From NCBI RefSeq assembly GCF_040807025.1, contig NC_090952.1, forward strand, positions 4,852,001-4,916,000: a stretch of DNA of 64,000 bases, read 5' to 3'. A model generated the notes under the pieces. It saw only the letters and a program-made list of their open reading frames with translations, ran no database searches and was not told the DNA's origin. Made by a program: the position numbers and the translations under genes. Source of the DNA: Struthio camelus. Its lineage: Eukaryota; Chordata; Aves; Struthioniformes; Struthionidae. Positions 2,351 through 12,059 of this stretch are shown here, in pieces (the first letter of the stretch is position 1; each line of letters begins with the position of its first letter).

Positions 2351-2392
2351 TTACTGAGCACGGGAGAAGTTTTCAATTGCTTCCTTCATTTC
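2351..2392 (-). CDS. ATAD2: Copy 1 ATAD2-like exon 20: last codons and stop
   Basis: Encodes [13 protein letters not shown] and TAA, matching the final residues of ATAD2 (KMEQEVENFSCSR). The acceptor follows a T-run on the minus strand that varies between copies (12 uninterrupted T in copy 1, one G-interrupted run in the others). Confidence 0.9.
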   Translation of the reverse strand, partial: EMKEAIENFSRAQ

Positions 2393-11300: not shown

Positions 11301-12059
11301 CCTACCTTCCAATGCCTCCTGGTAGTAGGCAACAGTCTTCCTGGCTCGAAGGTTATACTGCTTCCAGGGACCTTTGCCATCTTCCCCTTGCCGGCCTTCA
11401 CCTTCCCGCGTTGCCCCTGTAATCACAGAGCCTAGACAGAGCTTCTGATTGGTCTGTGTGTGTATGCATTTGCATTGCCCACCCTGTATCCCACTTACAC
11501 ACAAGCAACGAGCCCTTCAGAGAGGCTCTGCATCTAGCCTACCTTCCCGGGGAGCGGGAGTGTCCTCAGCAGTTTGCCTGAGGTGAGGTGCCCGGGGAGT
11601 ACCTTCGCCATCATCCTCTGTCTGCTCGTCTTCTGAGGACCCTGTAATTACAGTGCCCAGGCATCGTTTCTGGTTTGTCTCTGCCTATGTACCTTCTCAT
11701 TCCAGAAGTTCTACTCCCCCACCCTTAATCAGAAGCAACCAGCCCTTCAGGCCAACGGTGCCTGTAACCCACATTCCGATGGCTCTTGGTACTGGACGAC
11801 GGCGTTCCGGGGTCGAAGGTAATAGTCCTTGGGAGAGTCGCGGCCATCTTCCCCTGTGTGGCGTTCACCTGCCTTTGATGGCCCTACAATGACAGAAGCT
11901 AGCTCTACTTTGGGACTGCGCTGTGCGCACGGACATTTTCATGTCCCCGCTTAGGCGTGGGGAATTAGCCCTTCCGAGAAAGGCTGCCTCTAACGTACTT
12001 TCCAGTGGAGCTTGATAGCATATGACAGATGATTTCCTTTCTCTCAGGCTATAGCACGC
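2351..12059 (-). CDS. ATAD2: ATAD2-like AAA+ ATPase without bromodomain, copy 1
   Basis: A split gene read right to left. ATAD2 proteins are nuclear hexameric AAA+ ATPases that act on chromatin through histone binding. Placed exons, 5' to 3' (my numbering): 11999-12059, 11773-11883, 11543-11641, 11306-11416, 11022-11100, 10265-10348 (weak), 9917-10032, 9074-9248, 8688-8776, 8171-8330, 7000-7090, 6462-6776, 4856-5051, 4176-4361, 3567-3702, 3293-3418, 3184-3223, 3035-3134, 2562-2690, 2351-2392. All have AG/GT borders, no internal stops and mostly matching phases. Exons 7-12 and 13-20 form two phase-consistent chains. The AAA1 module looks catalytically complete and AAA2 is degenerate, as in human ATAD2. 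Three things are absent or unresolved: the bromodomain, the long acidic N-terminus, and linker exons between exons 6 and 7 and between 12 and 13. About 810 codons are placed, against about 1,390 in human ATAD2 from memory. The start codon is not settled. Confidence 0.85.
2562..2690 (-). CDS. ATAD2: Copy 1 ATAD2-like exon 19: conserved C-terminal domain
   Basis: 129 bp, 43 codons, phase 0 to 0; acceptor ttttcttcag, donor gtaatt. It encodes [20 protein letters not shown] followed by KTQLIE, matching the end of human ATAD2 (ISQCIYRHRKDHDKTSLI, from memory). Confidence 0.92.
3035..3134 (-). CDS. ATAD2: Copy 1 ATAD2-like exon 18: basic, NLS-like
   Basis: 100 bp encoding [20 protein letters not shown] and ending THIWLR. 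It resembles the Lys/Arg-rich stretch after the ATAD2 bromodomain and looks like a bipartite nuclear signal. Acceptor tatgcag, donor gtaggt, ending in phase 0 so that it joins exon 19. Confidence 0.6.
3184..3223 (-). CDS. ATAD2: Copy 1 ATAD2-like exon 17 (small)
   Basis: 40 bp encoding [12 protein letters not shown] in the phase required by exons 16 and 18. The acceptor follows a long pyrimidine run and the donor is gtaacg. Similarity to ATAD2 is weak. The intron to exon 18 is only 49 bp, short for a vertebrate, so exon 17 may be mis-drawn. Confidence 0.45.
3293..3418 (-). CDS. ATAD2: Copy 1 ATAD2-like exon 16: linker before the missing bromodomain
   Basis: 126 bp, encoding [16 protein letters not shown] and LEEQEEHT, matching the ATAD2 segment that directly precedes the bromodomain. 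After EEHT the sequence departs from ATAD2 (LPAVPADA), where human ATAD2 enters the first bromodomain helix. Donor gtacgc. Reading on without splicing stays open through the 69-bp intron into exon 17. Confidence 0.8.
3567..3702 (-). CDS. ATAD2: Copy 1 ATAD2-like exon 15: end of AAA2
   Basis: 136 bp, donor gtggga. It encodes [20 protein letters not shown] and [12 protein letters not shown], aligned with the ATAD2 stretch LFIRDYGEIFNVQLPDKEER...FFEDLILKQAA (from memory). One base left over. Confidence 0.9.
4176..4361 (-). CDS. ATAD2: Copy 1 ATAD2-like exon 14: AAA2 core
   Basis: 186 bp, 62 codons, phase 0 at both ends; acceptor cttactag, donor gtattt. It contains [20 protein letters not shown] and [10 protein letters not shown], a near-verbatim match to the AAA2 Walker B-like and sensor-1-like region of ATAD2. 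Confidence 0.93.
4856..5051 (-). CDS. ATAD2: Copy 1 ATAD2-like exon 13: AAA2 pseudo-P-loop
   Basis: 196 bp. It encodes [20 protein letters not shown] and [19 protein letters not shown], the degenerate nucleotide-binding site of AAA2 (GEPGxGQ in place of GxxGxGKT, as in human ATAD2). Two acceptors 12 bases apart, cttgcag (used here) and ctcctag (exon would end at 5039), both keep the frame and differ by four residues. Donor gtaccg. Confidence 0.92.
5484..5504. repeat. Short perfect inverted repeat
   Basis: attagggca, three bases, tgccctaat: a 9-bp perfect stem in the long intron between ATAD2-like exons 12 and 13. It is present in every unit. It could be a protein-binding palindrome or chance. 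Confidence 0.5.
6462..6776 (-). CDS. ATAD2: Copy 1 ATAD2-like exon 12: end of AAA1 and linker
   Basis: 315 bp, the longest exon; acceptor gaattag, donor gtaggg. It starts [18 protein letters not shown] (sensor-2/lid helices), continues through [20 protein letters not shown], and reaches [14 protein letters not shown], parallel to ATAD2 (ALQRVFPHAE). It leaves one base, which does not fit exon 13 directly, so the acidic linker exon of ATAD2 is either unplaced or lost. Confidence 0.92.
7000..7090 (-). CDS. ATAD2: Copy 1 ATAD2-like exon 11: AAA1 lid
   Basis: 91 bp, donor gtaaga. It encodes [19 protein letters not shown] and [11 protein letters not shown], the helical lid of AAA1. Phase 0 in, one base out. 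Confidence 0.9.
7399..7436 (+). repeat. Two copies of a 19-bp pyrimidine-rich repeat
   Basis: The 19-bp unit cctgtttctttcctgtttt occurs twice in direct succession within the intron between ATAD2-like exons 10 and 11. It is present in every unit. Confidence 0.9.
8171..8330 (-). CDS. ATAD2: Copy 1 ATAD2-like exon 10: AAA1 sensor 1 and arginine fingers
   Basis: 160 bp, acceptor ttgccag, donor gtaagg. It encodes [20 protein letters not shown] with the sensor-1 Asn in GATNRPD, then [12 protein letters not shown], which holds the arginine-finger region. This supports an active first ATPase ring. Confidence 0.95.
8688..8776 (-). CDS. ATAD2: Copy 1 ATAD2-like exon 9: AAA1 Walker B
   Basis: 89 bp, acceptor ccttccag, donor gtacca. 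It carries Walker B as [19 protein letters not shown], including the Asp-Glu pair needed for magnesium binding and ATP hydrolysis. Phase 0 in, two bases out. Confidence 0.95.
9074..9248 (-). CDS. ATAD2: Copy 1 ATAD2-like exon 8: AAA1 Walker A
   Basis: 175 bp, acceptor gttgcag, donor gtaagg. It contains the ATP-binding P-loop GPPGTGKT followed by [10 protein letters not shown], and the pore-side stretch [18 protein letters not shown]. These are near identical to ATAD2 and strongly conserved across AAA+ proteins. Confidence 0.95.
9917..10032 (-). CDS. ATAD2: Copy 1 ATAD2-like exon 7: start of AAA1
   Basis: 116 bp, acceptor tttccctag, donor gtaaca. It encodes [18 protein letters not shown] and then [18 protein letters not shown], matching the N-terminal part of the AAA1 domain. 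Phase 0 in, two bases out, completed by the first base of exon 8. Confidence 0.9.
10265..10348 (-). CDS. Copy 1 candidate exon 6: basic linker (weak)
   Basis: 84 bp, starting [19 protein letters not shown] in the phase left by exon 5, with donor gtgagg. The acceptor (ctgggaag) is poor, and the similarity to ATAD2 is only in basic composition. It leaves two bases whereas exon 7 starts in phase 0, so another exon would be needed between them, or this call is wrong. Confidence 0.35.
10786..10808 (+). repeat. Poly-C tract, copy 1 (23 C)
   Basis: Pure C-run in an ATAD2-like intron (G-run on the coding strand). Its length differs in every copy and makes a large contribution to unit length differences. 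Confidence 0.95.
11022..11100 (-). CDS. ATAD2: Copy 1 ATAD2-like exon 5: Arg/Ser-rich region
   Basis: 79 bp with acceptor tttcttcag and donor gtcggt. It encodes [20 protein letters not shown] and then CCRRTSR, aligning with the human ATAD2 stretch GPASPARPRYRL...SPYCKRMNR (from memory). It takes two bases and leaves two. Confidence 0.65.
11306..11416 (-). CDS. ATAD2: Copy 1 ATAD2-like exon 4: acidic to YNLRARK motif
   Basis: 111 bp, acceptor ttacag-like (gtgattacag), donor gtaggt. It encodes a charged stretch and then [17 protein letters not shown], a clear match to the ATAD2 YxLRxRKxxxYYQ motif. The phase joins exon 5 exactly, forming a Gly codon across the splice. Confidence 0.75.
11543..11641 (-). 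CDS. ATAD2: Copy 1 ATAD2-like exon 3: acidic, most diverged sister exon
   Basis: 99 bp, symmetric phase, open throughout. It begins [13 protein letters not shown], fitting the acidic region, and ends AEDTPAPRE where its sisters have the YxLR...YQE motif. The flanking intron sequence matches the other three tandem copies, which shows common origin. An internal GT at 11602 would give a 39-bp form that also keeps the frame. Confidence 0.5.
11773..11883 (-). CDS. ATAD2: Copy 1 ATAD2-like exon 2: diverged sister of exon 4
   Basis: 111 bp, the same length and phase as exon 4 (takes two bases, leaves one), so it can be included or skipped without shifting the frame. It encodes [17 protein letters not shown] after a charged stretch containing GEDGRD. 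The donor is gtgggt. Confidence 0.6.
11999..12059 (-). CDS. ATAD2: Copy 1 ATAD2-like exon 1: Y-x-LR basic motif, 5'-truncated
   Basis: Encodes [18 protein letters not shown], close to the human ATAD2 stretch that ends its acidic region (from memory YYLRQRKATVYYQAPLE). The donor is gtacgt and the exon leaves one base over. It is 61 bp, against 111 bp for its sister exons. Similarity to ATAD2 fades upstream of about 12053, where the plus-strand coding fragment begins, so the exon has probably lost its original 5' half. An AG at 12060-12061 after a pyrimidine-rich stretch could serve as a replacement acceptor. Confidence 0.6.

Follow-up and report, generated by a model that had tools for sequence, protein, structure and literature searches.

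Can an ATAD2-type ATPase persist after losing the bromodomain by which its family is recognised, and what would such a protein do? The question is raised by a 64,000-nucleotide stretch of the ostrich (Struthio camelus) genome (NC_090952.1, positions 4,852,001 to 4,916,000; here "the window", C11:4852001-4916000 in our contig numbering), which consists of a 13.0-kb unit repeated five times head to tail (mutual identity 99.7-99.9%, blastn of unit 1 against the window) with an ATAD2-like gene on the minus strand of the unit. Copies 2-5 begin at 13003, 25999, 38994 and 51972, the last being cut by the window end, and scattered, distinct substitutions and indels separate the copies. In descriptions of the family, a bromodomain is what sets these AAA+ ATPases apart, and drug work aims at that domain; judged from its sequence, the unit gene is descended from ATAD2 yet lacks the very domain that names the family. 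Evolution appears to have removed exactly that bromodomain in frame and then to have multiplied and conserved the remainder, which would offer both a natural experiment on an ATAD2 motor without its acetyl-lysine reader and a testable case of chromatin-chaperone amplification.

A preliminary description of the locus had claimed that the bromodomain was lost, and searches at three levels agree. With the human ATAD2 bromodomain as query, tblastn on window positions 1-15400 (one unit and the next 2.4 kb) returned noise only (best E 2.9), and the positive controls in the same run, AAA2 and the C-terminal domain, were found at 1e-27 and 2e-11. A Pfam search of the spliced protein (860-residue version) found AAA (1.5e-47) and the AAA lid, whereas PF00439 had no match with E of 0.01 or below; as a control in the same search, the bromodomain of the parent gene described below was recognised as PF00439 at 1.6e-18. 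In a PF00439 search of the whole genome (1.45 Gb, E up to 0.001), none of the 48 matches listed falls in the C11 arrays or in the related arrays on contig C5, and none lies on C45, C65, C151 or C224, the other contigs that carry copies of the unit.

How the domain was lost can be read from the parent gene, ATAD2, which lies at about C2:160.15-160.18 Mb and has three bromodomain exons (another ATAD2-type gene with a bromodomain, presumably ATAD2B, lies at C3:15.88 Mb). The unit is collinear with the parent through exons and many introns, from C2:160178820 to 160149469 (blastn, about 60-79% identity per piece), and is therefore a DNA-level duplicate, not a retrocopy. On this alignment it is an intron-containing, 5'-truncated copy of ATAD2: exons of the N-terminal region, upstream of the YLRxR exon, gave noise only in the unit (tblastn, best E 0.12), and the same query, the human ATAD2 N-terminus, finds exons in the parent. 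Window position 3318 corresponds to C2:160158652 and position 3316 to C2:160156503, so that 2,148 bases, as measured on the present-day parent, are gone. The deletion starts within about a codon of RELRIFLRDV and takes all three bromodomain exons together with part of the next exon, which in the parent reads ...KTKMPVVPVDSSTPLSN; the unit keeps part of that exon, joined in frame to the pre-bromodomain exon. These breakpoints also exclude a bromodomain hidden in a short intron. The preliminary description had exon 16 end in the segment that precedes the bromodomain; that segment is present, but the exon continues into codons homologous to the post-bromodomain linker exon. Two further gaps relative to the parent shorten an intron and the C-terminal linker. 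Over 586 codons, unit and parent differ by 0.94 synonymous (dS) and 0.15 nonsynonymous (dN) substitutions per site.

The gene had also been called amplified, and beyond the five window copies (the fifth incomplete) a 39-base Walker-A probe, run on the whole genome with at most three mismatches, matched 61 places (C11 19, C5 15, C45 6, C65 1, C151 8, C224 12; reversed-pattern control 0), although the exact copy number is uncertain. The match is exact at the 19 places on C11 and two bases off at the other 42, here termed C5-type; identity between their units and the window unit is about 88% in the longest pieces and ranges from 81 to 93% in the main ones. On C11, nine places on the minus strand near 4.85-4.95 Mb and ten on the plus strand near 5.88-5.99 Mb form two opposite arrays separated by about 0.9 Mb (about 4.97-5.87 Mb). 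A spacing of about 13 kb recurs on five contigs (C5, C11, C45, C151 and C224). A DMRT-type cluster located on C41 suggests that C41 is the Z chromosome, a contig on which none of the arrays is placed.

Four of the 42 C5-type matches were read (C5 at 4.30, 4.40 and 2.92 Mb, and one on C151). All four carry the same fusion, which therefore predates the split of the two unit families, and dS between C11 and C5 copies is 0.12, against 0.94 between unit and parent, which places the duplication long before the arrays split. In the three array-type copies (4.30 Mb, 4.40 Mb and C151) the frame is open up to the C-terminus, the N-terminal indels (-3 and +6) leaving it intact; the lone copy at C5:2.915-2.935 Mb, away from the main C5 array, has frame-breaking deletions in the third YLRxR exon. 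Between the window and the 4.40-Mb copy, dN/dS is 0.44 (bootstrap 0.33-0.61; 832 codons, Nei-Gojobori, candidate first exon excluded), and it is 0.43 for the 4.30-Mb copy and 0.44 for the C151 copy. By region, the ratio is lowest in AAA1 (0.26, 0.13-0.52) and AAA2 (0.30, 0.13-0.66), with 0.38 (0.16-0.99) for residues 446-530. C11 and C5 units differ by 6.2% in exons and 10.7% in introns (Fisher p 2e-10; the badly aligned stretch 2201-3300 omitted). When changes are polarised with the parent, the C11 branch has 25 that alter an amino acid among 49, and the C5 branch 22 among 38 (7 more sites being ambiguous), where a share of about 70-75% is expected; the deficit on the C11 branch has p 2.4e-4 to 4.7e-3, depending on the assumed transition bias. 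The remaining ATPase motor thus looks to have been preserved by purifying selection between the two unit families.

The protein so preserved has the parts of an ATAD2 ring. As the preliminary description had stated, the named AAA1 motifs are present: AAA1 retains Walker A and B, sensor 1 and the arginine fingers of a catalytic domain, as well as the pore-loop tryptophan, and AAA1 with its lid matches human ATAD2 at 203 of 250 residues (AAA1 81%). AAA2, in whose Walker A (GEPGYGQTS) the lysine is replaced, is of the non-catalytic kind usual for the family, and the C-terminal domain that completes AAA2 is kept; the N-terminal region ahead of the YLRxR exon and the bromodomain within the AAA2 helical domain are missing. 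Among solved structures, human ATAD2 matches best (8h3h, E 3.5e-259), with a separate match for the C-terminal domain. Nine checked positions are unchanged in window, C5 and parent genes: the equivalents of D415 (in the VDP of exon 10373-10265, N-terminal linker domain), K473, W505, D531, E532 and R540, the sensor asparagine and both arginines of RRPGRFD. D415, E532 and R540 are numbered after PMC10539301, which, like the other papers cited here, is drawn upon in excerpt; there, a salt bridge between D415 of the N-terminal linker and R540 is proposed to stabilise the ATAD2 ring, and a human Walker-B mutant with both residues mutated gave heterogeneous particles. With the parent found, the deletion mapped, these residues kept and dN/dS below 1, the earlier proposal that the reader was lost and the ATPase ring preserved is well supported.

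What such a protein might do is suggested by its relatives. The Abo1 bromodomain forms an insert in the AAA2 helical domain, between its helices 5 and 6, and the so-called C-terminal domain also belongs to that helical domain (PMC6917787); since the bromodomain is such an insertion, its excision would leave an uninterrupted AAA2 and ring parts that presumably still fold. The bromodomains of Yta7 form a spiral tier that closes the pore entry until nucleosome binding flattens it (PMC9898759). The sequence shows that part of ATAD2 without its 5' end was duplicated together with its introns, that the 2,148-bp deletion excised the whole bromodomain along with some of the linker behind it and fused the flanking coding exons in frame, and that further deletions trimmed the C-terminal linker; the copy spread as tandem units of about 13 kb on two large contigs, with the proteins of the two families diverging under purifying selection. 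A complete two-tier hexameric ring would remain, and the encoded ATPase would thread histone H3-H4 without being able to read acetyl-lysine, acting as its own ring or as subunits in mixed ATAD2 rings, with the chaperone either moved off acetylated chromatin or freed from a pore-blocking bromodomain tier. The gene thus probably encodes a conserved bromodomain-less ring subunit, working by itself or mixed with ATAD2, its biochemistry being deduced from that of its relatives.

Compared with ATAD2 itself (human 8h3h and the parent on C2), the unit gene shares AAA1, AAA2, the C-terminal domain, exon order, many intron stretches and the checked active-site and ring residues, but has no bromodomain, a shortened C-terminal linker, no N-terminal exons that could be found, four YLRxR exons and a tandem multicopy arrangement. 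Its two-AAA architecture and conserved pore-loop tryptophan are also those of Abo1 and Yta7, whose AAA2 is, in Yta7, reported inactive (PMC9898759); unlike it, the yeast proteins retain the bromodomain. Among literature matches listed, covering titles and the starts of abstracts and with subscription papers outside the scope, no report of an amplified or bromodomain-less vertebrate ATAD2 was recognised; as many of those papers make no mention of ATAD2, this is weak evidence of absence.

Several observations weigh against a conserved, working ring subunit. Histone loading failed in Abo1 carrying the bromodomain point mutation E900A (PMC6917787), and a bromodomain-less ring may therefore not load histones either. 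In the three array-type C5 copies the donor of exon 17 is deleted, although what used to be the intron stays open in frame up to exon 18; in these copies a 1-base deletion removes the old stop, 14 residues replacing the last one. The dN/dS intervals of the N-terminal (0.73, 0.40-1.40) and C-terminal (0.70, 0.35-1.54) parts include 1, and the deficit of amino-acid changes on the C5 branch is weak (p 0.015 to 0.083, again by assumed transition bias). The splice donors after 5768 and 8688 are weak, and the first exon is a candidate only, in which all three C11-C5 differences change an amino acid.

Rather than supplying a useful motor, the copies could act as a natural, dose-dependent inhibitor, entering or competing with ATAD2 rings and cutting their targeting to acetylated chromatin. 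That the protein joins or competes with ATAD2 hexamers is plausible, because the bromodomain is an insertion in AAA2 (PMC6917787) and because BRAT1, a bromodomain-AAA protein of Arabidopsis, works with an AAA partner, BRP1 (PMC4899616). BRP1 is an AAA ATPase partnered with a bromodomain AAA ATPase, and the excerpt names no bromodomain in it; unlike the unit protein, BRP1 is a plant protein with a PHD-like zinc finger, and the excerpt does not mention a deletion origin or amplification (PMC4899616). Retention of the checked ring-interface residues, a copy number high enough to suggest that dosage matters and the suggestion by its authors that bromodomain-mutant ATAD2 may multimerise with endogenous ATAD2 (PMC4991664) all fit an interfering role. 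The intact Walker B, sensor and arginine fingers, however, favour an active motor over a pure poison, and of 586 residues aligned between the parent ATAD2 protein and the paralogue about 25% differ; pure interference is possible but doubtful.

That the units are instead decaying, pseudogene-like repeats carried along by satellite-type amplification, with a function in the past and not the present, is unlikely. The frameshifted copy at 2.92 Mb, the lost splice donor, a GC-rich 20-bp satellite near one array edge, the candidate status of the start exon and the lack of a CpG island in window positions 1-15600 (the observed/expected CpG ratio never exceeds 0.73 when taken over 300 bases) would suit such decay; against it stand the open frames of all four complete window copies and, up to an altered C-terminus, of the three array-type C5 copies, an overall dN/dS below 1 and the C11-branch deficit, so that a dead pseudogene appears an unlikely description of the gene. 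One may also picture a dose-sensitive bromodomain-less histone-threading subunit, encoded by two competing array families of C5 and C11 type, that overrides or poisons acetyl-guided ATAD2 in the germ line, as a copy-number conflict or a germline-chromatin system; we put this forward as a rather improbable reading. It is least credible of all that the assembler created or distorted the copy number: the window copies are nearly identical and 27 of the 61 probe matches lie on four other, unplaced contigs, but the window copies have their own substitutions and indels, two diverged unit types exist and the spacing recurs across contigs.

The gene model for unit 1 (Table 1; exon names 16-18 follow the preliminary description) comprises 21 exons, phase-continuous throughout, with GT-AG introns and one GC-AG exception; it predicts 866 residues with the candidate first exon, or 843 counted from the first homologous exon, and window copies 1-4 yield the identical protein.

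Table 1. Features of the first unit (window coordinates).
Feature	Position	Strand	Basis
Tandem unit, copy 1	1..13002	.	blastn of unit 1 on window
Candidate first coding exon, MDLRQTEGVLAEEVKTSLPSSFS	12175..12243	-	ATG, favourable Kozak context, GTAAGT donor, phase 0
Four YLRxR exon copies	12059-11999, 11883-11773, 11641-11543, 11416-11306	-	self-similarity of exons and introns
Pre-AAA exons	11100-11022, 10373-10265	-	tblastn E 4.5e-8; phase-continuous
AAA1 and lid exons	10032-9917, 9248-9074, 8776-8688, 8330-8171, 7090-7000, 6776-6462	-	human ATAD2 identity
Linker exon	5840-5768	-	phase-continuous model
AAA2 exons	5051-4856, 4361-4176, 3702-3567	-	100/148 residues identical to human AAA2
Fusion exon (exon 16)	3275..3418	-	pre-bromodomain ...LEEQEEHTL in frame with post-bromodomain linker codons
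Basic linker exon (exon 17)	3035..3144	-	DNA match to parent C2:160155304-160155139
C-terminal domain exons, TAA stop	2690-2562, 2392-2351	-	tblastn E 2e-11 to human C-terminus
AATAAA	2310..2315	-	begins 36th base past stop codon

For exon 16, a GT donor after 3293 was replaced by the GC donor after 3275, which is preferred because the parent has the same boundary; the interval to exon 17, which starts at 3144, is accordingly 130 nt (148 nt with the GT donor) and not the 69 bases given earlier. The dN/dS values and the second Pfam search were computed with the donor after 3293, and the PDB and first Pfam searches used an early 802-residue model (without exon 10373-10265 and with a donor after 11018). 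The C-terminal domain exon is 63% identical to its parental counterpart. The YLRxR exon, which has a single match in the parent (C2:160173007), has been duplicated in tandem with its intron inside the gene, and the third of its four copies has diverged (HLRQTAEDT).

The span 2351..12059 assigned to the gene earlier holds the homologous exons and omits the candidate first coding exon. The surroundings of that exon align to an intron of the parent, and its frame is open and its ATG and donor are unchanged in three C5-type units read there (the copy at 2.92 Mb and two adjacent ones near 4.40 Mb). Ahead of the first homologous exon, window positions 12060-13002, which align to ATAD2 intron, differ by 7.2% from the C5 unit, against the 10.7% of introns (badly aligned stretch excluded; Fisher p 8e-4), and could contain a new promoter together with a first exon recruited from that intron. 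A plus-strand gene considered at 12193-12945 was rejected: its three reading-frame pieces have no Pfam match above the curated cut-off, and the stretch aligns to ATAD2 intron.

An Rfam search of one unit gave no match, and the exact 39-mer had 0 matches in viral contigs. Two similar weak bromodomain matches, at C40:11914778 and C41:8880519, could, as a guess, be one gene on W and Z. The GC-rich satellite, of about 20-bp period, occupies C11:4826006-4830568, near the array edge, and the left flank, about 13.3 kb long, is repeated after the first C11 array at 93.8% identity, followed by unit sequence from unit position 276 on.

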